From Microbacterium sp. cx-55 (GTDB taxonomy: Bacteria; Actinomycetota; Actinomycetes; Actinomycetales; Microbacteriaceae), in the NCBI RefSeq assembly GCF_021117345.1, contig NZ_CP088261.1:1550001-1614000 (forward strand): a DNA stretch of 64,000 nucleotides, written 5' to 3'. The notes beneath the pieces are model-generated. The model was not told where the DNA came from. It saw nothing but the letters and a program-made list of their open reading frames with translations, and searched no databases. The position numbers and the translations under genes are program-made. Positions 39,222 to 54,508 of this stretch are shown in pieces (position 1 is the stretch's first letter; every line of letters begins with the position of its first letter).

Positions 39222-43803
<4,582 letters not shown>

Positions 43804-43855
43804 ACCAACCGTCCTCATGTTGTTGCTTTTACGGGGACGACGTCGGCCCTGGGAG

Positions 43856-44875
43856 TTATTCGAGACGTCCGGAGCTTGTGGCTGTGCGCTCGGTGCTGAC
43901 TTCTGCTGCGGGCGGTTCGCTCACGTCAACGAAGTCGTCGGTGTCTTGCGAGTGTAGCGCCGTCTTGTCTACCCATTCGCGACCCGGCCGATACGGCGAG
44001 GGCTCGAGTCCCGGATGGCGGCGCTTCTGCACGATCACGATGACGAGTCCGATGACCACACCGATGATCGCCGCCCACACGTTCGAGCGGAGCCCGAAGT
44101 AGATCTCACTCGGGTCGATCCGGATGTTCTCCCAGACGATTCGGCCTGCGCTGTACCAGATCAGGTACAGACCGAACAGACGACCCCACTGGAGCGTGAA
44201 GCGCTTTCCGGCCCACAGGATGACCGCGGCGCCGAGCAGATTCCAGATCACCTCGTAGAGGAAAGTCGGCTGGAAAAGCGTGCCGTCTGGCAGTCCCGCC
44301 GGGATCGCGGCGTTGCCCGGATCGATCTCCAGTCCCCACCACGCATCCGTCGGCTGACCGAACAGCTCCTGGTTGAAGTAGTTGCCGAATCGGCCCATCG
44401 CCTGCGCGATCAGCATGCCCGGAGCCACCGCATCCGCGAACGTCCAGAACCGGATCCCGGTCCAGCGGCAGCCGATCAACGCGCCGATGGCGCCACCGAT
44501 GAGCGCACCGTAGATGGCGATGCCGCCCTCCCAGATGGCCCAGACGGTGCCCGTCCGCCACGCGATCTCACCGTTCTCGAACGTGAACAGCACCCACGGG
44601 TTGCTGCCGTCGCCGAAGTAGAACCCCGGGTGGGTCAGCACGTGGAAGATGCGCGCTCCGATGATCGCGATCGGGATCGCGAACAGGCAGATATCGATGA
44701 CGACCCACGGCTCTGCACCGCGTCGGCTGAGCCGACGGTTCGTCAGCAGCACCGCCACGATGATGCCGGCGATGATGCACAGCGCATAGAAGTGGATGCG
44801 CAGCGCACCGATCTCGAAGTAGCTGATCGAGGGGCTCGGGATGCTGCCGAACACGGAAAGTGCCGAGAAAGTCAC
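43856..44875 (-). CDS. lgt: Prolipoprotein diacylglyceryl transferase
   Basis: Membrane enzyme (339 residues) that attaches diacylglycerol to the lipobox cysteine of prolipoproteins. It has seven or so membrane helices, the [14 protein letters not shown] motif and the Lgt signature [19 protein letters not shown], including the conserved Arg and Asn. The C-terminal ~65 residues are polar and acidic, longer than in E. coli, as is usual in actinobacteria. GTG at 44875 has a TAGACT box 7 bases upstream. Its position after trpA is conserved in Mycobacterium. The gap to trpA holds one doublet of the 67-bp repeat family. Confidence 0.96.
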
Positions 44876-44888
44876 GACGGCGAGTCTA
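44876..44888 (-). promoter_or_regulatory. Predicted leaderless promoter of lgt
   Basis: Minus-strand TAGACT (44888-44883) with 7 bases to the GTG at 44875. It lies just downstream of the first repeat doublet in the direction of transcription. Confidence 0.6.
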
Positions 44889-44952
44889 CTGGGCTGTCGG
44901 ACGTGCGCCGCGCGCCGTGCTTCGTGGAGGCAGGCGGGGTTGGCAGCGCGCT

Positions 44953-45019
44953 ACAACTCCTCCAGAACCCGTCGCTCGGAGCCCCCAGCGGCGTGCGGGT
45001 ACCGGATTGAAGGAGTTGT
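44953..45019. repeat. 67-bp inverted-repeat element, copy 1
   Basis: Terminal inverted repeat ACAACTCCTCCA (44953-44964) and TGAAGGAGTTGT (45008-45019; one mismatch), core of 43 bases. It is in the 314-bp gap between trpA and lgt. The core differs from all other copies except for a short GAAC next to the left arm and CCGGAT next to the right arm. The rest of the gap has no gene that I can support. Confidence 0.85.
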
Positions 45020-45112
45020 GGCGTGCGGGGCGTCGTGTCGCCGCGGGTTCGCTCCGCTCTGCCGACCGACCGCTGCGCTCCCGCGATGGCGGATCGCGTG
45101 CGGTCTACGGCG

Positions 45113-45179
45113 ACAACTCCTCCAGAACGAGCGTCGCGGTGCCATCTGACACCCGAACGGCCGGGATTGGAGGAGTTGT
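45113..45179. repeat. 67-bp inverted-repeat element, copy 2
   Basis: Terminal inverted repeat ACAACTCCTCCA (45113-45124) and TGGAGGAGTTGT (45168-45179), a perfect 12-bp match, core of 43 bases. It lies 93 bases from copy 1 and 10 bases before the trpA stop. The core is unrelated to copy 1 apart from GAAC at its left edge and GGGAT/CGGAT at its right edge. Confidence 0.88.
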
Positions 45180-45189
45180 GCGCTGCGGG

Positions 45190-45978
45190 TCAGGCTGAGC
45201 GGGTGCCGTCGGCGAGAGCTCGAGCGGTGCGGGCGAGCTCGTCGAGCCCGCCGTCACGAAGCGCGCGGACGAGCGCGGTCCCGACGATCGCCCCGTCGGC
45301 GTAGTCCAGAACGCCGGAGACCTGATCTGCCGTGGAGATTCCGATGCCGACGCACGCGTGCTCGACGCCGTGTTCGCGAAGACGCGCCACGAGGGTCCGT
45401 GCCGCCGCATCCAGCTCGGCGCGCTCCCCCGTGATACCCATCGTCGAGACCGTGTAGACGAACCCGGTCGAGTTTCGCGCGACGAGCTCGAGGCGTTCGT
45501 CCGTCGACGTCGGTGCGGCGAGGAAAACGCGGTCCAGGCCCGTCCGCTCGCTCGCGGCGATCCAGTCGGCCGCCGCCTCCGGCGTGATGTCGGGGGTGAT
45601 CAAACCCGCGCCGCCGGCCGCGGCGAGCTCATCCGCGTATCGGTCGACACCGTACTGGAACACCGGGTTCCAGTACGTCATGACGAGAACCGGGATGTCG
45701 ACACGGGAGGCGATCTCTTGCACGGCCGGGAAGATGTCGCGCAACCGGAAGCCGCCGGCCAGCGCGTGCTGGGTCGCCTCTTGGATGACGAGACCGTCCA
45801 TGACCGGATCGGAATACGGCGGGCCGAGCTCGAGGATGTCGGCTCCGTTCTCCGCGAGCGTGACGGCCGCCTCGATGCTTGTGCGGAGATCCGGGAACCC
45901 GAGCGGCAGATAACCGACGAACGCTCCGCGCCCTTCGGCTTTCGCGGCATCGATCGCCGCGGCGACGCGCGAGCTCAC
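45190..45978 (-). CDS. trpA: Tryptophan synthase alpha chain
   Basis: Splits indole-3-glycerol phosphate into indole and glyceraldehyde 3-phosphate; indole is channelled to TrpB. 262 residues, TIM barrel. The catalytic residues are in [12 protein letters not shown] (strand 1) and [20 protein letters not shown], where the Glu and Asp act. Phosphate-binding glycines occur in [12 protein letters not shown] and [12 protein letters not shown]. Position [16 protein letters not shown] near residue 175 is also typical. GTG at 45978 overlaps the trpB stop by 4 bases (GTGA), so the alpha and beta chains are made together. Confidence 0.96.
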
Positions 45979-47246
45979 AGCTCCGTCCCCTCGCCCTTGG
46001 CTTCCTCCGTGGGCGCGGGAACGTCCACGGGTGATCCGTCATCGCCGGCTTCGGCGTCGTACAGCTCGAAGTAGCGGGCGGCGGTGTCCATGTCCTTGTC
46101 GCCGCGACCGGAGAGGTTCACCACGATCACCGACTCCGGACCGAGCTCGGGGCCGAGTCGCACCACGGCCGCCAGGGCGTGCGCCGACTCGATGGCGGGG
46201 ATGATCCCCTCGGTGCGCGAGAGCAGGCGCAGCGCCTGCATCGCCTCGTCATCGGTCGCCGGAATGTACTGCGCGCGACCGATCGACGAGAGCCACGCGT
46301 GCTCGGGGCCGACGCCGGGATAGTCGAGCCCGGCCGAGATCGAATGGGACTCCACCGTCTGACCGTCTTCGTCTTGCAGCACGTACGTCTTCGCGCCGTG
46401 CAGGATGCCCGGTCGCCCGCGCTCGATGGAGGCCGCGTGGCGCGGGGTGTCGACGCCGTCGCCGGCGGCCTCGACGCCGTACAGCGCGACACCCTCGTCG
46501 TCGAGGAACGCATCGAACATGCCGATCGCGTTCGACCCGCCGCCGACGCACGCGAAGACCGCATCCGGAAGCCGGCCGATCGTCTCGAGCATCTGCGCGC
46601 GAGTTTCTTCGCCGATGATCTTCTGGAAGTCGCGCACCATGGCCGGGAACGGATGCGGTCCTGCGGCGGTGCCGAAGATGTAGTTCGTCGTCTCGACGCT
46701 CGACACCCAGTCGCGGTACGCCTCGTTGATCGCGTCCTTCAGCGTGCGGGAGCCGGTCGTCACCGGGATGACCTCGGCGCCGAGGAGCCGCATCCGCGCG
46801 ACGTTCAACGCTTGACGCTCGGTGTCGACCTCGCCCATGTAGATCGTGCAGTCGAATCCGAAGAGCGCCGCAGCGGTCGCGGTCGCCACACCGTGCTGTC
46901 CTGCCCCGGTCTCGGCGATCACGCGCGTCTTGCCGAGGCGCTGCGTGAGCAGCGCCTGCCCGATGACGTTGTTGATCTTGTGGGACCCGGTGTGGTTGAG
47001 GTCTTCGCGCTTGAGGAAGACCCGTCCGCCGCCCGCGTGCTCGGCGAACCGGGCGACCTCGGTGAGCGCGGACGGTCGGCCGGCGTAGGAGTTCAACAGC
47101 CCCGTCAGCTCGGTGGCGAACGCGGGGTCCGCCATGGCCGTCTCGTAGACCTCGGTCAGCTCGTCGATCGCGGCGATGAGCGATTCGGGCATGTACCGGC
47201 CGCCGAACTCACCGAAGAACGGACCTTTGGCATCGCGGAGTTTCAT
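45975..47246 (-). CDS. trpB: Tryptophan synthase beta chain
   Basis: PLP enzyme (423 residues) that joins indole and serine to form tryptophan. The PLP lysine is in [17 protein letters not shown] and the phosphate-binding loop is [10 protein letters not shown]. The N-terminal [15 protein letters not shown] and the [23 protein letters not shown] segments are typical of the TrpB1 form, which works with TrpA. The C-terminal ~25 residues (acidic and Pro-rich) extend slightly beyond most homologues. The ATG at 47246 overlaps the trpC stop (ATGA). Confidence 0.97.
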
Positions 47247-48019
47247 GAACCGACCTCCAGGAAGGATCGCAGGGTGGCGACGGGGTCGCCGGTGACGAGG
47301 GCTTCGCCAACGAGCACGACGTCCGCGCCCGCGTCGCGATAGTGGCGGACATCCGCGGGCTGCAGCACGGCGGACTCGGCGATCTTGACCGCATCCGCAG
47401 GGAAGCTGTCGGCCAGGCGGCCGAACAGGTCACGGTCGAGTTCGAACGTGAAGAGGTTGCGGGCGTTCACGCCGATGAGTCGCGCCCCGAGATCGGCGGC
47501 GCGGGCGAGCTCATCGGCCGAGTGCGTCTCGACGAGAGGCGTCATCCCGAGCTGTCGCACCAGGTCGTGAAGCTCGACCAGCAGCGGTTGCTCGAGCGCC
47601 GCGACGATCAGCAGCACCAGGTCGGCACCCGAGGCGCGCGCCTCCAGCACCTGATACGGGGTGGCGATGAAGTCCTTGCGCAGCACCGGCAGCGCCACGG
47701 ACGCGCGCACGGCCTCGAGGTCGGCGAGGCTGCCCTTGAATCGGCGACCCTCGGTGAGCACGGAGATGGCGCTCGCTCCGCCCTGCTCGTAGAGCGACGC
47801 CTGGTGGGCCGGATCGGGGATGGCGGCGAGATCACCTCGTGAGGGGCTCGCGCGCTTCACCTCGGCGATGATCTTGACGCGGTCGGCGGGGGCCAAGGCG
47901 GCCAGCGCGTCGAGCGCGGGGGTCTGCGCGAGTGCCGCGCGTTCCACCTCGGCGATCGGACGCACAGCGGCGCGGGCCTCGGCATCTTCCACCGCGCCGG
48001 CCATCAGGTCGGCGAGCAC
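47243..48019 (-). CDS. trpC: Indole-3-glycerol phosphate synthase
   Basis: TIM-barrel enzyme (258 residues) that closes the indole ring of tryptophan from carboxyphenylaminodeoxyribulose phosphate. Conserved residues include the lysine in [16 protein letters not shown] in [13 protein letters not shown], the catalytic lysine in LPVLRKDFI, the Glu of TPLVETHS and [12 protein letters not shown]. The phosphate-binding GDP-type segment is AVLVGEAL-like ([13 protein letters not shown]). GTG at 48019 is preferred over ATG 48004 because the DUF6704 stop lies 3 bases upstream, so the genes are closely coupled. No trpD or trpF gene is adjacent. Confidence 0.95.
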
Positions 48020-48021
48020 GC

Positions 48022-48252
48022 TCAGTGCTCTTTCGCGATGTACTTCGACCCGTTGGCGCCCCAGCCGGCGCGCGACATGATCCAACCCACGATGGCGCCG
48101 ATCACGAGCAGAACCACCGAAGCCCACACGAGCGCCGGCAGGTCGAGCACGAAGAACAGGGTGCCGAAAGCGACGGCGACGAGCATGATGATGACCGCCG
48201 TCCATGCTGCCGGGGAGTGTCCGTGGCCCGGGTCGCCGATGGGGTTGCTCAT
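48022..48252 (-). CDS. DUF6704 small membrane protein of the trp operon
   Basis: Protein of 76 residues with two membrane helices (AAWTAVIIMLVAVAFGTLFFV and ALVWASVVLLVIGAIVGWIM) between a polar His/Gly start (GDPGHGHSPAAWT) and a short tail. The HGHSPAAWTAVII beginning is characteristic of the DUF6704 family, found next to trpC in actinobacteria. Function is unknown. The ATG at 48252 has GGAG 5 bases upstream. The stop lies 2 bases from the trpC GTG. Confidence 0.85.
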   Translation of the reverse strand: MSNPIGDPGHGHSPAAWTAVIIMLVAVAFGTLFFVLDLPALVWASVVLLVIGAIVGWIMSRAGWGANGSKYIAKEH

Positions 48253-48297
48253 GAGTCTCCTTCGCGTGGCGCGGGCATCTCGTGCCCGGCTCTCAGT

Positions 48298-48903
48298 CTA
48301 GCGGGGGGTCTGCAGGGTCGTTGGATCGTCGCCACGGCTGAGGTCGTCCCACGAGTCGACGGCATCGAGGGGTCCATCGGTTGTGCGTCGCGCGTCCCGA
48401 CGGGCGGCAGCCTCGTACTTGCGAGTCCCGCTCGGCCACCGCATCCCGGTCACGACGACGAAGACACCGACGGCGGCGAGGACGAGCGCCGCGAGCGCTG
48501 CGACGAAGGGCCACGCCGTCGTCGATGTCGACGACACGAGGTCGCCGACCGCCGAGTCGCCGGCGATCCCGGTGACCTCGGTGACGCTCGGGGTGATGGC
48601 CGATGCGGGCACCCCGACCAGGAGCGGCACGACCAGCGTCGCGAGCAGCACGGCGATCAGCACCGTGAGGAGGCCGAACACGAGCCGCAACGCGCGCCCG
48701 ACGATCGACAGCGCCGCGCCGAGAGCCAGTACGGCGAGGCTCAGCGGGGCGAGAACCGGGATGGCGGTGGCTCCCGCCACGGCGACATCCGACGTCGCGC
48801 CGCCGGTCAGCACCACGTGCACCCAGGTCTGGGTCGACGAGATGACGCCCGCGGCTCCCGCGAGGAGAGTCACAAGGACCGACGTCGAGCGGGCGCGCCG
48901 CAT
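48298..48903 (-). CDS. Trp biosynthesis-associated membrane protein
   Basis: Membrane protein of 201 residues with four hydrophobic helices (for example TSVLVTLLAGAAGVISS, APLSLAVLALGAALSIVG, VLIAVLLATLVVPLLVG and WPFVAALAALVLAAVGVFV) and a charged C-terminal tail. It matches the small family encoded between trpE and trpC in actinobacteria, annotated as tryptophan-associated; its biochemical role is unknown. The ATG at 48903 shares one base with the hisI stop (TGATG). The trpE gene that normally precedes it is absent here, hisI being the neighbour instead. Confidence 0.85.
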   Translation of the reverse strand: MRRARSTSVLVTLLAGAAGVISSTQTWVHVVLTGGATSDVAVAGATAIPVLAPLSLAVLALGAALSIVGRALRLVFGLLTVLIAVLLATLVVPLLVGVPASAITPSVTEVTGIAGDSAVGDLVSSTSTTAWPFVAALAALVLAAVGVFVVVTGMRWPSGTRKYEAAARRDARRTTDGPLDAVDSWDDLSRGDDPTTLQTPR

Positions 48904-49259
48904 CAGCGATCGCCGCGCACGGGGTCGAGGTCGTCGCTGTCGAAGCAGGTGCGGGTACCGGTGTGGCACGCGACCCCGACCTGATCGACGCGGACGAGGA
49001 TCGCGTCCCCGTCGCAGTCCAGGCGGGCGCCCTTCACCAGCTGCATGTGACCCGAGGTGTCGCCCTTGCGCCAGTACTCCTGGCGTGAGCGCGACCAGAA
49101 AGTCACCCGACCGGACGTGAGTGTGCGGCGGAGGGCCTCCGCATCCATCCATCCGAGCATCAGCACCTCACCGGTGTCGTACTGCTGGATGATCGCCGCC
49201 ACGAGTCCGTCGGCCGTGAACGTCACCCGGGAGATGCGCTCGTCGAGCGTCTCACTCAT
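48903..49259 (-). CDS. hisI: Phosphoribosyl-AMP cyclohydrolase
   Basis: Third step of histidine synthesis, opening the purine ring of phosphoribosyl-AMP. The protein has 118 residues and no fused hisE domain. Metal-binding cysteines and aspartates are in [29 protein letters not shown]. The [16 protein letters not shown] and [19 protein letters not shown] motifs are canonical. The ATG at 49259 overlaps the hisF stop (ATGA). The separate hisE gene lies two genes upstream in the same operon. Confidence 0.96.
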
Positions 49260-50020
49260 GCGCGCACCTCGATTCCGGCGTCGGTCAGGGCGGACTTCAC
49301 GTCGCCGACCGTCAGCTGCGCGGAGTGGAAGACGGATGCGGCGAGCACCGCATCCGCGCCGGCCTGGATCGCGGGGGCGAAGTCCTCGGCCGCACCGGCA
49401 CCGCCCGACGCGATCACGGGCACCCGCGCGATCTCGCGCATCAGCGTGACCAGCTCGAGGTCGAACCCGTCCTTGGTGCCGTCGGCGTCGATCGAATTCA
49501 CGAGCAGCTCACCGGCGCCGCGTTCGATGGCTTCCTGCGCCCACTCGACGGCATCGAGCGTGGTCAGGGTCCGGCCTCCGTGCGTCGTCACGACGAAACC
49601 CGACGGCGTGAGCGGCGCGCGCTTCACGTCGAGCGAAAGAACGAGCACCTGCGCACCGAAGCGGTCGGCGATTTCGTCGATGAGAGCGGGACGGGCGATG
49701 GCCGCCGAGTTCACGCCCACCTTGTCGGCGCCCACCCCGAGCAGACGCGCGACATCCTCCGCGGAGCGCACTCCCCCGCCGACCGTCAACGGGATGAACA
49801 CCTCTTCGGCGGTGCGACGCACCACGTCGTACGTGGTGGCGCGCTCGTCGACCGTCGCCGTCACATCGAGGAAGGTGAGTTCGTCAGCGCCCTGCTCGAA
49901 GTAGAGCCGCGCAAGTTCGACCGGGTCGCCCATATCGCGGAGATTCTCGAAGTTGACGCCCTTCACCACGCGCCCGGCGGCCACGTCCAGGCACGGGATG
50001 ACCCGGCAGACGAGGCTCAT
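49256..50020 (-). CDS. hisF: Imidazole glycerol phosphate synthase, cyclase subunit
   Basis: TIM-barrel cyclase (254 residues) that uses ammonia from HisH to form imidazole glycerol phosphate and AICAR. The catalytic aspartates are in [16 protein letters not shown] (Asp11 type) and [16 protein letters not shown] (Asp130 type). The phosphate-binding segments [15 protein letters not shown] and [11 protein letters not shown] are also present. The ATG at 50020 shares a base with the hisG stop; the frame continues upstream, but only over hisG. Its glutaminase partner hisH is not in this window. Confidence 0.97.
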
Positions 50021-50862
50021 CAGAGCCTCGCGGCGTGGATTTCGGTGACCAGGATGGCGCGCGCGCCAATGGCGTAGAGCTCGTCCATTACCTGATTCAC
50101 GTTCTTCCGCGGGCTCATCACCCGAACGGCCACCCACGCGGGGTCGCGCAGCGGCGAGATCGTGGGCGACTCGATGCCGGGCGCGACCGCGATCGCGGCG
50201 TCGATGAGTTCGACCGGGAGGTCGTAGTCCACCAGCACGTAGCGCTGCGCAACGAGCACTCCGCGCAGGCGACGCAGCAGCGTGTCGAGTCCGGCGGGCT
50301 CTTCGGGGCCAGTGATGAGCACCGCATCCGACTCGAGCAGGACAGGACCGAAGATCTCCAGCCCCGCCTGGCGGAGCGTGGTACCGGTCGAGACCACATC
50401 GGCGACCGCATCCGCAACGCCCAGTTCGACCGCGGACTCCACCGCACCGTCGAGCGGGACGAGGTCGACAGCGATGCCCTGCTCGTCGAGATATGCGTCG
50501 ACGAGGCCCGGGTACGCGGTCGCGACCCGCACGCCGTCGAGATCCTTCAGCTCGTGGAAGCGCCCCGGAGGCGCCGCGAAGCGGAACGTCGACCCGCCGA
50601 AACCGAGAGCCTCGATCTCGCGGGCGCCCGGCATCCGGGCATCGAGCAGCAGGTCGCGCCCGGTGATGCCGACATCCAGCGCTCCCGAGCCGACGTAGGT
50701 CGCGATGTCCTTCGGACGGAGGTAGAAGAACTCGACATCGTTGACCGGGTCGATCACGTGCAGGTCTTTGGGGTCGCGGCGACCGGTGTACCCGGCCTCG
50801 GCCAGCATGGCGTGCGACGTCTCAGCCAGTGAACCCTTGTTGGGCACGGCGATTCTCAGCAT
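50020..50862 (-). CDS. hisG: ATP phosphoribosyltransferase (long form)
   Basis: First and committed step of histidine synthesis, joining ATP and PRPP. At 280 residues it is the long HisG type with a C-terminal regulatory domain of the ACT-like kind that binds histidine, so feedback inhibition is expected. Features are [13 protein letters not shown] at the start, [12 protein letters not shown], a PRPP-binding loop [19 protein letters not shown] and the C-terminal [24 protein letters not shown]. The ATG at 50862 has an AAAG-type weak ribosome-binding site. hisE ends 42 bases upstream. Confidence 0.96.
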
Positions 50863-50904
50863 GGGGAAAGACTCTCTCGAAAAGTGCGGACGGAGGGATG
50901 CCGG

Positions 50905-51168
50905 TCACAGATGTCGGTAGACGTCCTGCAGCGTGAGGTTCTTCGCCAGCATCATCACCTGCAGGTGGTAGAGGAGCTGGGAGATCTCTTCTGCGGCAGC
51001 ATCCGTCGACTCGTACTCGGCGGCCATCCACACTTCGGCGGCTTCTTCGACGATCTTCTTGCCGATCGTGTGCACCCCGGCGTCGAGCTCGGCGATCGTG
51101 CCGGAACCAGCGGGTCGGGTGCGTGCCTTCTCGCTGAGCTCCGCGAATAGATCGTCGAACGTCTTCAC
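50905..51168 (-). CDS. hisE: Phosphoribosyl-ATP pyrophosphatase
   Basis: Second step of histidine synthesis, removing pyrophosphate from phosphoribosyl-ATP. The protein has 87 residues and the MazG-like helical fold, with [14 protein letters not shown] and the metal-binding motif [18 protein letters not shown], then [25 protein letters not shown] at 51168 is chosen because it begins the conserved sequence and a TACCCT box lies 6 bases upstream. A longer frame upstream reads unlike the family. Confidence 0.95.
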
Positions 51169-51180
51169 TGGTCCAGGGTA
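51169..51180 (-). promoter_or_regulatory. Predicted leaderless promoter of hisE (his-trp operon)
   Basis: Minus-strand TACCCT (51180-51175) with 6 bases to the GTG at 51168. It could give the his-trp genes their own transcript separate from rpe. Confidence 0.5.
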
Positions 51181-51232
51181 TCGAACCGGGAGGACCCCTC
51201 GGACCGGATGACCGCGGCGGCGTGCGCCGGAG

Positions 51233-51910
51233 CTACGCGGCCCCGTGCAGGTGAGCCCGCGCGGCCGCCGTGCGAAGCCCCGCGATGGCGTTGTCGGGAT
51301 CGTCCGCACCGAACACGGCGGATCCGGCGACGAACGTATCGGCGCCGGCCGCGGCGGCCTGAGCGATCGTCGACTCGCCGATCCCCCCGTCGACCTGCAG
51401 CCACACGGCAGAGTCCCGACGACGCGCTTCTGCGGCCAGCGTGCGAAGCTTCGGCATGGTCTCGGGCATGAACGACTGTCCGCCGAAGCCCGGCTCGACC
51501 GTCATCACGAGCACCTGATCGAACTCGGGAAGAACCTCGAGCAGCGCGTCGACCGGGGTTCCGGGCTTCACGGCGACACCGGCGCGCGCCCCGATCGCAC
51601 GCAACCGCCGGGCCAGCGCGACCGCATCGTCCGCGGCCTCGAGGTGGAACGTGACCGACGCCGCGCCGAGCTCGGCGTACTCGGGAGCCCACCGGTCGGG
51701 ATCCTCGATCATGAGATGGACGTCCAGCGGCACGGGACTCGTCTCCTGAATACGACCCACCATCTGCGGACCGAACGTCAGGTTGGGCACGAAGTGGTTG
51801 TCCATCACGTCGACGTGCACGAAGTCTGCAGAGGCGATGCGGGCGAGTTCGGCCTGCATGTTCACGAAGTCGGCGGCGAGGATCGACGGGTTGATGCGGA
51901 GATCGGTCAC
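51233..51910 (-). CDS. rpe: Ribulose-phosphate 3-epimerase
   Basis: Pentose phosphate enzyme (225 residues) that interconverts ribulose 5-phosphate and xylulose 5-phosphate. It has [10 protein letters not shown], the metal-binding [16 protein letters not shown] and [26 protein letters not shown] and [12 protein letters not shown]. All match the TIM-barrel family with its His/Asp metal site. GTG at 51910 has a GATAAT box 6 bases upstream. rpe lies between the repeat doublet 3-4 and hisE on the same strand; rpe also follows fmt and the rsmB homologue in Mycobacterium. Confidence 0.96.
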
Positions 51911-51922
51911 GCGTCCATTATC
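51911..51922 (-). promoter_or_regulatory. Predicted leaderless promoter of rpe
   Basis: Minus-strand GATAAT (51922-51917) with 6 bases to the GTG at 51910. It is just downstream of repeat copies 3 and 4 in the direction of transcription. Confidence 0.5.
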
Positions 51923-51958
51923 CCCGGGTGGTCGCCGCCCAACCGCGGGGTCGTCGCG

Positions 51959-52025
51959 ACAACTCCTCCACGTGGGGCCCCGGCGGTGTCGGTGGCCCCG
52001 GGGTTACCGGTTTTGGAGGAGTTGT
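51959..52025. repeat. 67-bp inverted-repeat element, copy 3
   Basis: Perfect 12-bp terminal inverted repeat ACAACTCCTCCA (51959-51970) and TGGAGGAGTTGT (52014-52025), extended to 14 bp by CG on each side, with a core of 43 bases. It lies in the 310-bp gap between rsmB and rpe. The core resembles copy 4. The rest of the gap has no gene that I can support. Confidence 0.88.
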
Positions 52026-52084
52026 CGAGTCGCGAGCTCGGAGCGGGCGCAGCGCGGGCGGCCGGTTCTCCCGAGCCGCGCGCG

Positions 52085-52152
52085 ACAACTCCTCCACGTG
52101 GGGCCCTGGCGGCGCCGGTGGACCCCCGGGTTACCGGTTTTGGAGGAGTTGT
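52085..52152. repeat. 68-bp inverted-repeat element, copy 4
   Basis: Perfect 12-bp terminal inverted repeat at 52085-52096 and 52141-52152 with a core of 44 bases, 59 bases from copy 3. Its core is clearly related to copy 3: CGTGGGGCC at the left and GGGTTACCGGTTT at the right are shared. Confidence 0.88.
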
Positions 52153-52220
52153 CGAGTCGCAAGCCCGGCGCGGGCACAGTGCGGGGCGGCATCCGCGCGT
52201 CGGCGCGGACCGCGAGCGGG

Positions 52221-53591
52221 TCAGCGTCGGCGGAGGAGGCTCAGGAACATGGCGTCCGTGCCGTGCCGGTGCGGCCACAGCTGCGCACGCCCCGATCCGT
52301 CGGCGGGCGTCGGCAGATCCAGCGGCGTGCGCGCCACCGCCTGCACGGCCGCGCGTGCGTCCAATTCCTCCAGCTCATCGCCCCACTCGCGACGCGCCTC
52401 CGCGACGACCCCCACGGTCTCGGCGAGGTGCGGCGAGCACGTCACGTACGCGACGATCCCGCCGGGGCGGAGTGCGCCGATCGCGGCCGACAGCAGTTCG
52501 GACTGGAGCGCGGTGAGCTCCGCGACGTCGGCGGCGGACTTCCGCCAGCGGGCCTCCGGGCGACGGCGCAGCGCGCCGAGGCCCGTGCAGGGCGCATCGA
52601 CGAGGATGCGGTCGTACGACCCGGGCACCAGGGCGGCGCGCTCCCGACCGTCGAGCTCGCTCACCGGAACGTCAGCGGGTACGCCCGCCAGCGCCGCACG
52701 CACGAGCCCCGCCCGCGCGTGGGAGATCTCGTTCGCCTCGAGATGGGCACCGTGCGCGAGCGCCTCCGCGGCGAGCAGGGCGGTCTTCCCGCCGGGGCCG
52801 GCGCACAGATCGAACCAGCGTTCGCCGTCGCGCACCGGCACGACGCGTGAGAGCGCGAGAGCGACCAGCTGCGAACCCTCGTCCTGCACGCGGATGCGGC
52901 CACCCGCTGCCGCCATCACGCCGGCAGGGTCGCCGCCGGCCGAGAGCGCCCCCACCGGGGAGTACACGGTCGGCGCGAGATCCGCGGGACGCGTGGCGAG
53001 CCCCGGAAGAACCGCCAGTGCCACTCGCGGCGACGCGTTGTCGGCCCGCAGCAGTTCGTCGAGCTCGTCTGCGCGTCCTTCCGCTGCGAGAGCGCGACGG
53101 AAGGCGCGGAGGATCCACACGGGATGCGAGGTCGTGAGGCTCAGGCGTTCGTCGGCGGATCGCGCCGACGCCTCGATGCGAGCGATCCACTCCCCCGGTG
53201 TGTCGCGGGAGATCCGGCGCAGAACGGCGTTCGCGAAGCCGGTGGGGCCGGGGCCCGCCACCGCGCGGACGAGCGCGACGGTCTCGTGCACCGCCGCGTG
53301 GGAGGCGATCCGCGTGGAGAGCAGCTGGTGGGTACCGAGCCGAAGCGCGTCGAGGACGTCGGGGTCGATCGCCTCCGGTTCGCGCCCCGCGGCGGACGCG
53401 ATGATCGCGTCGTAGGTGCCCTGCCGCCGCAGGGTGCCGTAGGTCAGCTCGGTCGCGAGCCCGGCATCCTGCGAGTTCAGCCCCGCGCGTTCGATCTCGA
53501 TCGGAAGCAGCAGGTTGGCGTACGCCTCATCGGCGTGCACCGCCCGAATCGTCTCGTACGCGACGCGACGAGGTCCGCGCGTGACGCTCAC
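52221..53591 (-). CDS. rsmB: 16S rRNA (cytosine-967 C5)-methyltransferase RsmB
   Basis: RNA methyltransferase (456 residues) that acts on 16S rRNA. An N-terminal NusB-like RNA-binding domain (about 1-150: RVAYETIRAVHADEAYANLLLP and LNSQDAGLATELTYGTLRR) is followed by a SAM-dependent domain with DLCAGPGGKTALLA, the catalytic cysteine in VDAPCTGLGALRRRPEARW and the second cysteine in AYVTCSPHLAETVGVV. GTG at 53591 overlaps the fmt stop (GTGA). In Mycobacterium the equivalent fmu gene also sits between fmt and rpe. Downstream is the repeat doublet 3-4. Confidence 0.94.
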   Translation of the reverse strand: MSVTRGPRRVAYETIRAVHADEAYANLLLPIEIERAGLNSQDAGLATELTYGTLRRQGTYDAIIASAAGREPEAIDPDVLDALRLGTHQLLSTRIASHAAVHETVALVRAVAGPGPTGFANAVLRRISRDTPGEWIARIEASARSADERLSLTTSHPVWILRAFRRALAAEGRADELDELLRADNASPRVALAVLPGLATRPADLAPTVYSPVGALSAGGDPAGVMAAAGGRIRVQDEGSQLVALALSRVVPVRDGERWFDLCAGPGGKTALLAAEALAHGAHLEANEISHARAGLVRAALAGVPADVPVSELDGRERAALVPGSYDRILVDAPCTGLGALRRRPEARWRKSAADVAELTALQSELLSAAIGALRPGGIVAYVTCSPHLAETVGVVAEARREWGDELEELDARAAVQAVARTPLDLPTPADGSGRAQLWPHRHGTDAMFLSLLRRR

Positions 53592-54508
53592 GAGCCGACC
53601 ACCGGTTCGGCCGAGCGGATTCCTCGATACCAGTCCCCGGCCGCCATGGCGGATTTTCCGGCGGGCTGAACGCGGGCGAGAACGAGCGGGTCGGTGCCCG
53701 TGCCCACCCGAATGGCGGACCCGTCCAGCGCCAGCCGACCGGGAGCGAGTGCGGACTCCGCGTCGGCGCGATGCAGCTCGATCACTTTCACCCGCGCGCC
53801 CTCCAGCGTCGTGAACGCACCGGGTTCGGGAGTCGTGCCGCGCCACCGGGCGAGGATCTCGTCGGCGGGTCGGGTCCAGTCCAGTCGCCCGTCCTCGGCG
53901 GTGAGCTTGGGCGCGTACGTCGGTTCGCCGGACTGCGGCACGGCGCGCGCGGTGCCGGCGGCGATCTGGTCGACCACCCGGTGCAAGAGCTCGGCGCCCT
54001 GTTCGGCGAGGTCGGCGAGCACGCGGTCTGCCGTCGCGAGCGGCGGCACCCGATAGCGGATCTCGTCGAAGACATCGCCGGCGTCCAGAGCCGCGACGAG
54101 CTGGAACACGCCGGCACCGATCACGGAGTCGCCCGCGACGAGGGCGCGCTGCACGGGTGCTGCTCCCCGCCAGGCCGGGAGCAGAGAGAAGTGCAGATTG
54201 ATCCACCCGTGCCGCGGCGTCGACAGCAGCGGTTCGCGCACGAGGCCGCCGTACGCGACGATCACCCCCAGGTCGGGCGCGAGACGGGCGATCTCGGCCG
54301 TCGCCGCATCGTCGAGTCGATCCGTCTTGACGACCGGCAGACCGAGGTCGGTGGCGGCCTGTGCGACGGATGACGGCGTGAGCACGCGCTTGCGGCCCAG
54401 CGGCGCGTCGGTGCGCGTGACGACCGCGGCGACGTCGTGGGCGGATGCGGCGAGCACCCGCAGAGAGGGGACAGCCGCATCCGGCGTCCCTGCGAAAACG
54501 AGACGCAT
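53588..54508 (-). CDS. fmt: Methionyl-tRNA formyltransferase
   Basis: Formylates initiator methionyl-tRNA with 10-formyltetrahydrofolate; 306 residues. Features are MRLVFAGTPDAAVPSLRVL, VVTRTDAPLGRKR (tRNA-binding region), the catalytic core NLHFSLLPAWRGAAPVQRAL containing Asn-His, and DEIRYRVPP, where Asp is expected to act. The C-terminal beta-barrel domain for tRNA binding is complete. The ATG at 54508 opens 8 bases after the priA stop. Confidence 0.96.
   Translation of the reverse strand: MRLVFAGTPDAAVPSLRVLAASAHDVAAVVTRTDAPLGRKRVLTPSSVAQAATDLGLPVVKTDRLDDAATAEIARLAPDLGVIVAYGGLVREPLLSTPRHGWINLHFSLLPAWRGAAPVQRALVAGDSVIGAGVFQLVAALDAGDVFDEIRYRVPPLATADRVLADLAEQGAELLHRVVDQIAAGTARAVPQSGEPTYAPKLTAEDGRLDWTRPADEILARWRGTTPEPGAFTTLEGARVKVIELHRADAESALAPGRLALDGSAIRVGTGTDPLVLARVQPAGKSAMAAGDWYRGIRSAEPVVGS

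Follow-up and report, generated by a model that had tools for sequence, protein, structure and literature searches.

A family of inverted paired-arm elements in Microbacterium with arms spaced near whole helical turns: putative two-armed sites for a DNA-bending protein

Miniature inverted-repeat transposable elements (MITEs) are small and dispersed and carry terminal inverted repeats, and nucleosome-type rotational positioning places A+T once per turn in wrapped DNA. The closest described kind to the family reported here is the REPIN, an inverted doublet with preferred spacing in which each end is a palindromic REP associated with RAYT transposases, according to the available portions of the papers on it (PMC3116915, PMC2817692, PMC3733652). 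Paired operators such as those of lac are looped over 6 to 8 turns, and the available part of that work describes such short spans as closable in cells, with a spacing set by the helix (PMC5081198). Here, we analyzed a 64,000-nucleotide stretch of the genome of Microbacterium sp. cx-55 (NZ_CP088261.1, positions 1,550,001 to 1,614,000, forward strand; hereafter the window, in whose numbering features are given), where a preliminary description made from the letters alone had noticed four intergenic elements with conserved inverted ends. We consider it probable that each element is a two-armed double-stranded DNA site for one putative sequence-specific protein bending or wrapping the core between the arms. 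Among the open-licence PMC papers listed in literature searches, none describes this element family in its title or abstract opening, which is no proof of absence.

The four elements of 67 to 68 bp were recovered at 44953..45019 (element 1), 45113..45179 (element 2), and 51959..52025 (element 3), each 67 bp long with 45 bases between the arms (the gap), and at 52085..52152 (element 4), which is 68 bp long with a gap of 46; none has a strand. Both arms are exact in elements 2, 3, and 4, and element 1 combines an exact left arm with a right arm, GAAGGAGTT, carrying one mismatch. The 12-bp inverted repeat first ascribed to all four copies is therefore perfect in three, as the right arm of copy 1 reads GAAGGAGTTGT. 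The cores of elements 1 and 2 are largely unlike, as had been claimed (35% of core positions differ even in gapped alignment), while element 4 is a near copy of element 3, with 9% of core positions differing, and lies 126 bp from it. Counted singly and with up to 2 mismatches allowed, arms match 28 times in the window; shuffles average 12.2 (standard deviation, 3.4), and 0 of 100 reach 28.

The genome search set beforehand as a refuting test of the family yielded 42 copies with gaps of 44 to 46, which establishes the family as real. The paired-arm pattern, AACTCCTCC followed by any 30 to 60 bases and GGAGGAGTT, occurs at 40 places in the 3.27-Mb single-contig genome, compared with 0 for the reversed-pattern control. 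A whole-genome search restricted to gap 45 and tolerating up to 3 mismatches gave 33 exact pairs, 2 with one mismatch, and none with 2 or 3. Altogether, the genome contains at least 42 elements in 22 clusters of 1 to 5 copies, 40 of them with exact arms; this is a lower bound because copies with arm mismatches were sought genome-wide at gap 45 only and at other gaps in the fetched stretches. The gap is 44, 45, or 46 in 2, 35, and 5 of the 42 copies, respectively, and the absence of copies at gaps 47 to 60 and 66 to 96 leaves this genome with the shortest class only. Spacers between neighboring copies (n = 20) range from 52 to 179, and neighboring copies are phased at 11.2 bp (first interval per array, n = 14, R 0.78, p 0.003), as expected if copies stack or act together. 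According to the simple gene caller used for cluster placement, the intergenic location given in the preliminary description applies to 20 of the 22 clusters, one of the others overlapping the end of an open frame and one lying within a long open frame. Flanking genes are convergent, divergent, and codirectional alike, with no preferred orientation, and are housekeeping genes by eye without shared function. In this genome (G000), where a dnaA-like gene was recognized by eye at 134 from the contig start, a hand count placed 10 of 22 clusters in the chromosome quarter nearest that start (5.5 expected).

Congeners were surveyed at gaps 35 to 65 and 66 to 96, and among 366 genomes of the genus, 29 and 27 carriers were found, respectively, with a few to about 40 dispersed copies each (per-genome counts are of the places listed, and hence at least those numbers). 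The element lengths are stepped by about 11 bp because related species carry the same arms at two further distances, 54 to 57 and 66 to 69. Among 136 distinct arm pairs tallied, 128 (a few of them coding or coding-like) fall at gaps 44 to 46, 54 to 57, or 66 to 69 (classes 1, 2, and 3), with class mean gaps of 45.1, 55.6, and 67.8 and a total element length of 63 to 86 bp. Each step is thus close to one extra helical turn, without forming a perfectly even ladder. In G210, searched at gaps 42 to 72, all 30 matches lie at gap 55 (4), 56 (20), or 68 (6). Eight of the 136 pairs fall outside the three classes: those at gap 65 (G185) and gap 73 (G249 and G184) look coding by eye, the one at gap 77 (G270) is a composite of neighboring arms, and those at gaps 41 and 43 come from the records of a wider contig scan, for which 80 of at least 120 stretches were listed. 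From that scan, loci L085 to L199 were excluded from the tally and L200 to L204, the source of the gap-41 and gap-43 outliers, were included; among the matches listed, those outside the Microbacteriaceae are scattered in length and look like chance by eye. In G046, elements in the fetched loci have a gap of 45 to 46, the arm being followed by T or C; one further element has a gap of 68.

The arms hardly change where the cores do. Between adjacent copies of the window's genome (20 pairs), 3 of 400 arm positions differ, compared with 161 of 861 in cores and 362 of 1480 in flanks. Across 8 orthologue pairs of other species, cores have 10 differences and 0 indel columns over 427 positions, and flanks have 69 differences and 64 indel columns over 1552 positions. 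The array common to G234, G079, and G080 was excluded from these totals because its copies cannot be paired unambiguously; the 11 comparisons made for it gave 0 arm differences, 1 to 9 core substitutions, and no core indel. Arms and length are thus kept, and core letters drift; the constant lengths and indel-free cores support the selection on arm spacing that had been suggested at the outset. Moreover, 16 congener stretches, picked because they contain exact elements and searched with up to 2 mismatches, gave 39 exact pairs, 2 with one mismatch, and none with two as an independent pair, three additional two-mismatch rows being alternative alignments to an element already counted as exact; nothing matched the reversed control. 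The outer bases vary by species (GCY in the window's genome, CCG in G270 and G271, mostly CGA in G210), and the tenth arm base is A in 83 of 84 arms of this genome and in about three quarters of class 2 arms. The arm AACTCCTCCA is not self-complementary. In this genome, covariation between left and right arms is absent from the inner variable positions and from the first outer base, and the missing inner-arm covariation counts against base pairing as the main selected feature.

An A+T rhythm of 10.0 to 10.5 bp runs through the cores. It was tested on 83 non-redundant cores out of 120, trimmed by 13 bp at each end; the 120 are what is left of the 128 in-class sequences once 8 coding or coding-like ones (from rdgB, kdpB, and two further recurring sequences) had been removed, a close relative of these, L308, being kept. 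In the 83 cores, the period is 10.0 to 10.25 bp, with a z score of 12.2 at 10.0 bp, and 300 within-core shuffles reach at most 3.8 at any period. Measured about the dyad, classes 1, 2, and 3 give +5.9, -13.3, and +6.0, their core centers being A+T, G+C, and A+T, respectively. If one full turn is added per class, the center shifts by half a turn per side, which requires the sign to flip from class to class, as observed, with the phase at the arms unchanged. The inner A+T marks are 4, 5, or 6 turns apart (by hand from the class profiles), and many class 3 copies have a center like CCGCGGAATnCCGCGG. The core described as free is thus free in most of its letters and bound in its A+T phase and in a length that hardly changes. 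Folding of the 42 class 1 cores tested is no stronger than in shuffles (mean z, -0.06), and class 1 cores show no left/right covariation.

Some elements lie within coding sequence. In 9 of 29 genomes, rdgB (identified by a match to the RdgB/HAM1 model) contains a 74-bp element with both arms exact, at the start of the gene. In G046 (L331), the same 74-bp place in rdgB has an intact right arm and a left arm with two mismatches and looks decayed. The right arm of the rdgB element coincides with the codons V-E-E-F-G, a conserved coding sequence; GTGGAGGAGTTCGG occurs in all ten rdgB element genomes and in 0 of 19 others, 10 of which have V-E-E and use GTC. Because the part of the element adjoining the right arm is conserved protein sequence, this copy was not inserted as a unit. 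In the rdgB single-gene tree, which is too weak to separate gains from losses, the starred branches force at least 3 changes, and common descent of the ten copies is possible. An 86-bp element lies in kdpB-type coding sequence, as established for the G079 copy; like sequence was seen in three genomes (L293, 1501-1586; L285, 1501-1586; G080:C37:1716-1801). In the window's genome, the gap-44 element at genome positions 3024064-3024125 (L219), which makes up the one cluster within a long open frame, supplies codons to the tail region of a pcaB-like protein, outside the conserved domain, the lyase models covering residues to about 450 of 529.

We propose the following model. From near-invariant arms, quantized and constant lengths, phased A+T, and the coding arm in rdgB, we infer a protein, its oligomeric state, the wrapping, and a purpose. 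The protein of the window's genome would read AACTCCTCCA and about three outer bases (GCY) on each arm, other species differing there and often at the tenth base. As the arms are inverted and near a whole number of helical turns apart, they would present the same face of the DNA. The protein, probably an oligomer, would grip both arms simultaneously, and the 45, 56, or 68 bp between them would bend or wrap so that an A+T minor groove points inward at every turn. With both arms gripped and the core bent, selection would preserve the arm sequence, the length, and the phase of the A+T rhythm, most other core letters being left free. Copies may originate through local tandem duplication, through gain of intergenic DNA, and, as in rdgB, through formation in place. 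The scattered placement of the elements regardless of promoters suggests chromosome architecture (local looping or the fixing of supercoils) as the most likely purpose, ahead of the control of a single promoter. Among the three options of the preliminary description, that of a dimeric protein site is the one supported.

Several observations nevertheless weigh against this two-armed protein site. No candidate arm-binding protein was found. Nearly all elements were found through patterns requiring exact 9-base arms, and in the 8 orthologue pairs, arms differ at 2 of 160 positions. The steps between class means are uneven, 10.5 and 12.2 bp; outliers at gap 58 (G047) and gap 78 (G181) are without explanation; and 13 intervals from other genomes lack the phasing of neighboring copies. 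For class 1, the rhythm reaches significance only with the dyad fixed (best z with free phase, 2.4), and a control 150 bp downstream has a weak rhythm of its own (z 2.5), perhaps because arrays extend into it. Covariation between arms is weakly raised at the second outer base (p 0.016) and at the third (p 0.064), both values being uncorrected; that at the second weighs against the protein site. Finally, gap-56 (class 2) cores have a slight excess of complementarity (11.2 versus 9.9 of 27, p 0.0075), gap-68 cores show a trend (p 0.079), and folding is somewhat stronger in class 2 and class 3 cores than in shuffles (z -0.35, standard error 0.15, and z -1.33, standard error 0.59, respectively), which leaves room for a hairpin contribution in these two classes.

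A REPIN-like or MITE-like miniature mobile element, its arms being ends recognized by a transposase and its spacing kept by the architecture of the transposition complex, would account for the many dispersed, mostly intergenic copies, for their patchy occurrence in the genus (29 of 366 genomes at gap 35 to 65), and for the gain of about 300 bp with two elements between trpA and lgt. Inverted doublets with preferred spacing are also the REPIN hallmark in the available part of PMC3116915. We nonetheless hold this explanation unlikely: Y1_Tnp (PF01797) matched in 0 of 40 genomes (20 carriers and 20 without arm pairs), compared with 5 of 14 control genomes, and inspection by eye of the 42 references listed for flanking genes, 40 of them different, showed no transposase. 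No consistent target duplication accompanies the 42 copies, the best of 81 offset pairs giving 10 equal 3-mers, 5 equal 5-mers, 4 equal 6-mers, and 1 equal 8-mer, inconsistent and in GC-rich flanks. Decayed copies with 2 to 3 arm mismatches are missing at gap 45 in the window's genome, though its cores have diverged, as are independent two-mismatch pairs in the 16 congener stretches; moreover, one rdgB arm sits in conserved codons, so that the rdgB copy was not inserted whole. The site for a mobilizing enzyme, another option raised at the outset, accordingly loses ground with the lack of the REP transposase family in the 40 genomes and with that arm, and we keep it as possible. As for a phage link, 43 viral-contig stretches were inspected, and their sequences are unlike the element family by eye, which gave no sign of such a link.

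We give very little credence to an RNA or single-stranded DNA hairpin, be it a terminator, an mRNA stabilizer, or an anti-Shine-Dalgarno switch. With their complementary arms, whole elements have a far stronger fold than shuffles (mean z, -4.4), which comes mainly from the arms, the class 1 cores having no fold. The location of the rdgB copies at the start of the gene, the weak covariation at the second outer base, and the weak complementarity excess of gap-56 cores speak for it; the lack of covariation at inner arm positions, of any terminator-like site in either intergenic stretch of the window (loops of 3 to 8 scanned), of a preferred gene orientation, and of an Rfam family in 43800-53000 speaks against it, and length classes about 11 bp apart with a 10-bp A+T rhythm are left unexplained. 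The RNA hairpin exposing a Shine-Dalgarno-like GGAGGAG, as first imagined, finds no support, given the missing inner-arm covariation, the unfolded class 1 cores, the duplex-period rhythm, and the mixed gene orientations. Neither the mobile element nor the RNA, each of which accounts for some features, accounts for the quantized lengths. Operator pairs of an ordinary transcription regulator looping DNA at promoters would suit the 5- to 8-turn spacing, which lies within the short repression-loop range given in the available part of PMC5081198; this is improbable in our view, since several clusters (657171, 985407, 2234114, 2857889, and 2925457, by the simple gene caller) are flanked by convergent genes, a setting in which a promoter would not be expected, and the neighbors are unrelated housekeeping genes by eye.

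In the window, elements 1 and 2 occupy the intergenic stretch 44876..45189 (no strand) between trpA (45190..45978, minus strand; TIGR00262, 228 bits against a cutoff of 102) and lgt (43856..44875, minus strand; TIGR00544, 148 bits against a cutoff of 119). In congeners, this junction is only about 10 to 60 bp long in all 15, out of 16, for which it was shown (stops and starts by eye), and by this comparison about 300 bp including the two elements were gained here. The gained stretch exceeds its two elements: the DNA on their sides, of about 10, 93, and 67 bp, is absent from the junction in the congeners shown. Elements 3 and 4 occupy the intergenic stretch 51911..52220 (no strand) between rpe (51233..51910, minus strand; TIGR01163, 254 bits against a cutoff of 213) and rsmB, part of an open frame at 52221..53600 (minus strand) whose best matches are the RsmB models NF011494 and TIGR00563, both below their cutoffs. 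Upstream of rpe, at the same place as elements 3 and 4, 3 of 12 congeners examined (L253, L254, and L255, in G009, G007, and G006) have a different palindrome of about 62 to 65 bp (hand count) with arms CGTGAG-GGTCAAGA or GTTGAGTGTCCAAGACACGCCGCA; one pattern for these rpe-junction palindromes, run on the fetched loci, matched only that of G009. In the window's region 43800-53000, Rfam gave no family, its single match being below threshold and elsewhere, and neither intergenic stretch contains a sigma-70 promoter or, in a scan allowing loops of 3 to 8 only, a terminator-like site.

A bolder form of the two-armed protein site, which we put forward tentatively and with more doubt than confidence, is that a dedicated architectural protein wraps 4, 5, or 6 turns of DNA between specific anchors, as a sequence-addressed nucleosome-like particle at up to about 40 chromosomal points. 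Its arm specificity would drift between species, and sites would form inside genes via synonymous and even amino acid changes. If true, a genome family would record the in-cell helical pitch of DNA in its own sequence lengths, and the elements would point to an anchor-pairing, DNA-bending protein. They would also offer a natural, replicated DNA-looping test, with related species supplying three lengths, and would be an example of a dispersed repeat maintained by protein binding instead of transposition.

Compared with known systems, the elements share with MITEs terminal inverted repeats, small size, and dispersal; unlike MITEs, they have no consistent target duplication, no decayed copies were found, and no parent transposase lies beside the copies (genes adjoining clusters judged by eye, genome-wide transposase scan for PF01797 only). 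Unlike intrinsic terminators, both window stretches lack a stem-loop with a T run (loops of 3 to 8). As in nucleosome-type positioning, A+T recurs once per turn, phase-locked to the site; in contrast to it, the sites end in fixed sequence-specific arms, total 63 to 86 bp, and are bacterial. Two features of phased, looped, or wrapped sites are found here: a spacing near whole helical turns (steps of 10.5 and 12.2 bp) and a rhythm of A+T, about 10 bp in period, that is in register with the arms (in class 1 only with the dyad fixed). Like the paired lac operators, as the available part of PMC5081198 presents them, the elements consist of two copies of one site with a helix-set spacing; they differ in being dispersed in a few to about 40 copies per carrier genome, independent of promoters, within 1 to 2 bp of three lengths, and with a putative binder. 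With REPINs, as far as described in the available part of PMC3116915, they have in common short inverted invariant ends, a less conserved spacer of preferred length, and many intergenic clustered copies. Four REPIN features were tested, and three do not fit: the arms are not palindromes themselves, no RAYT/Y1_Tnp (PF01797) gene occurs in the 40 genomes tested, and there is little sign of compensatory changes. The fourth, a preferred spacing of inverted doublets, is shared, with 128 of 136 pairs in three gap classes, and it is set apart from that of REPINs by being quantized in helical turns with phased A+T, some copies lying inside coding sequence.

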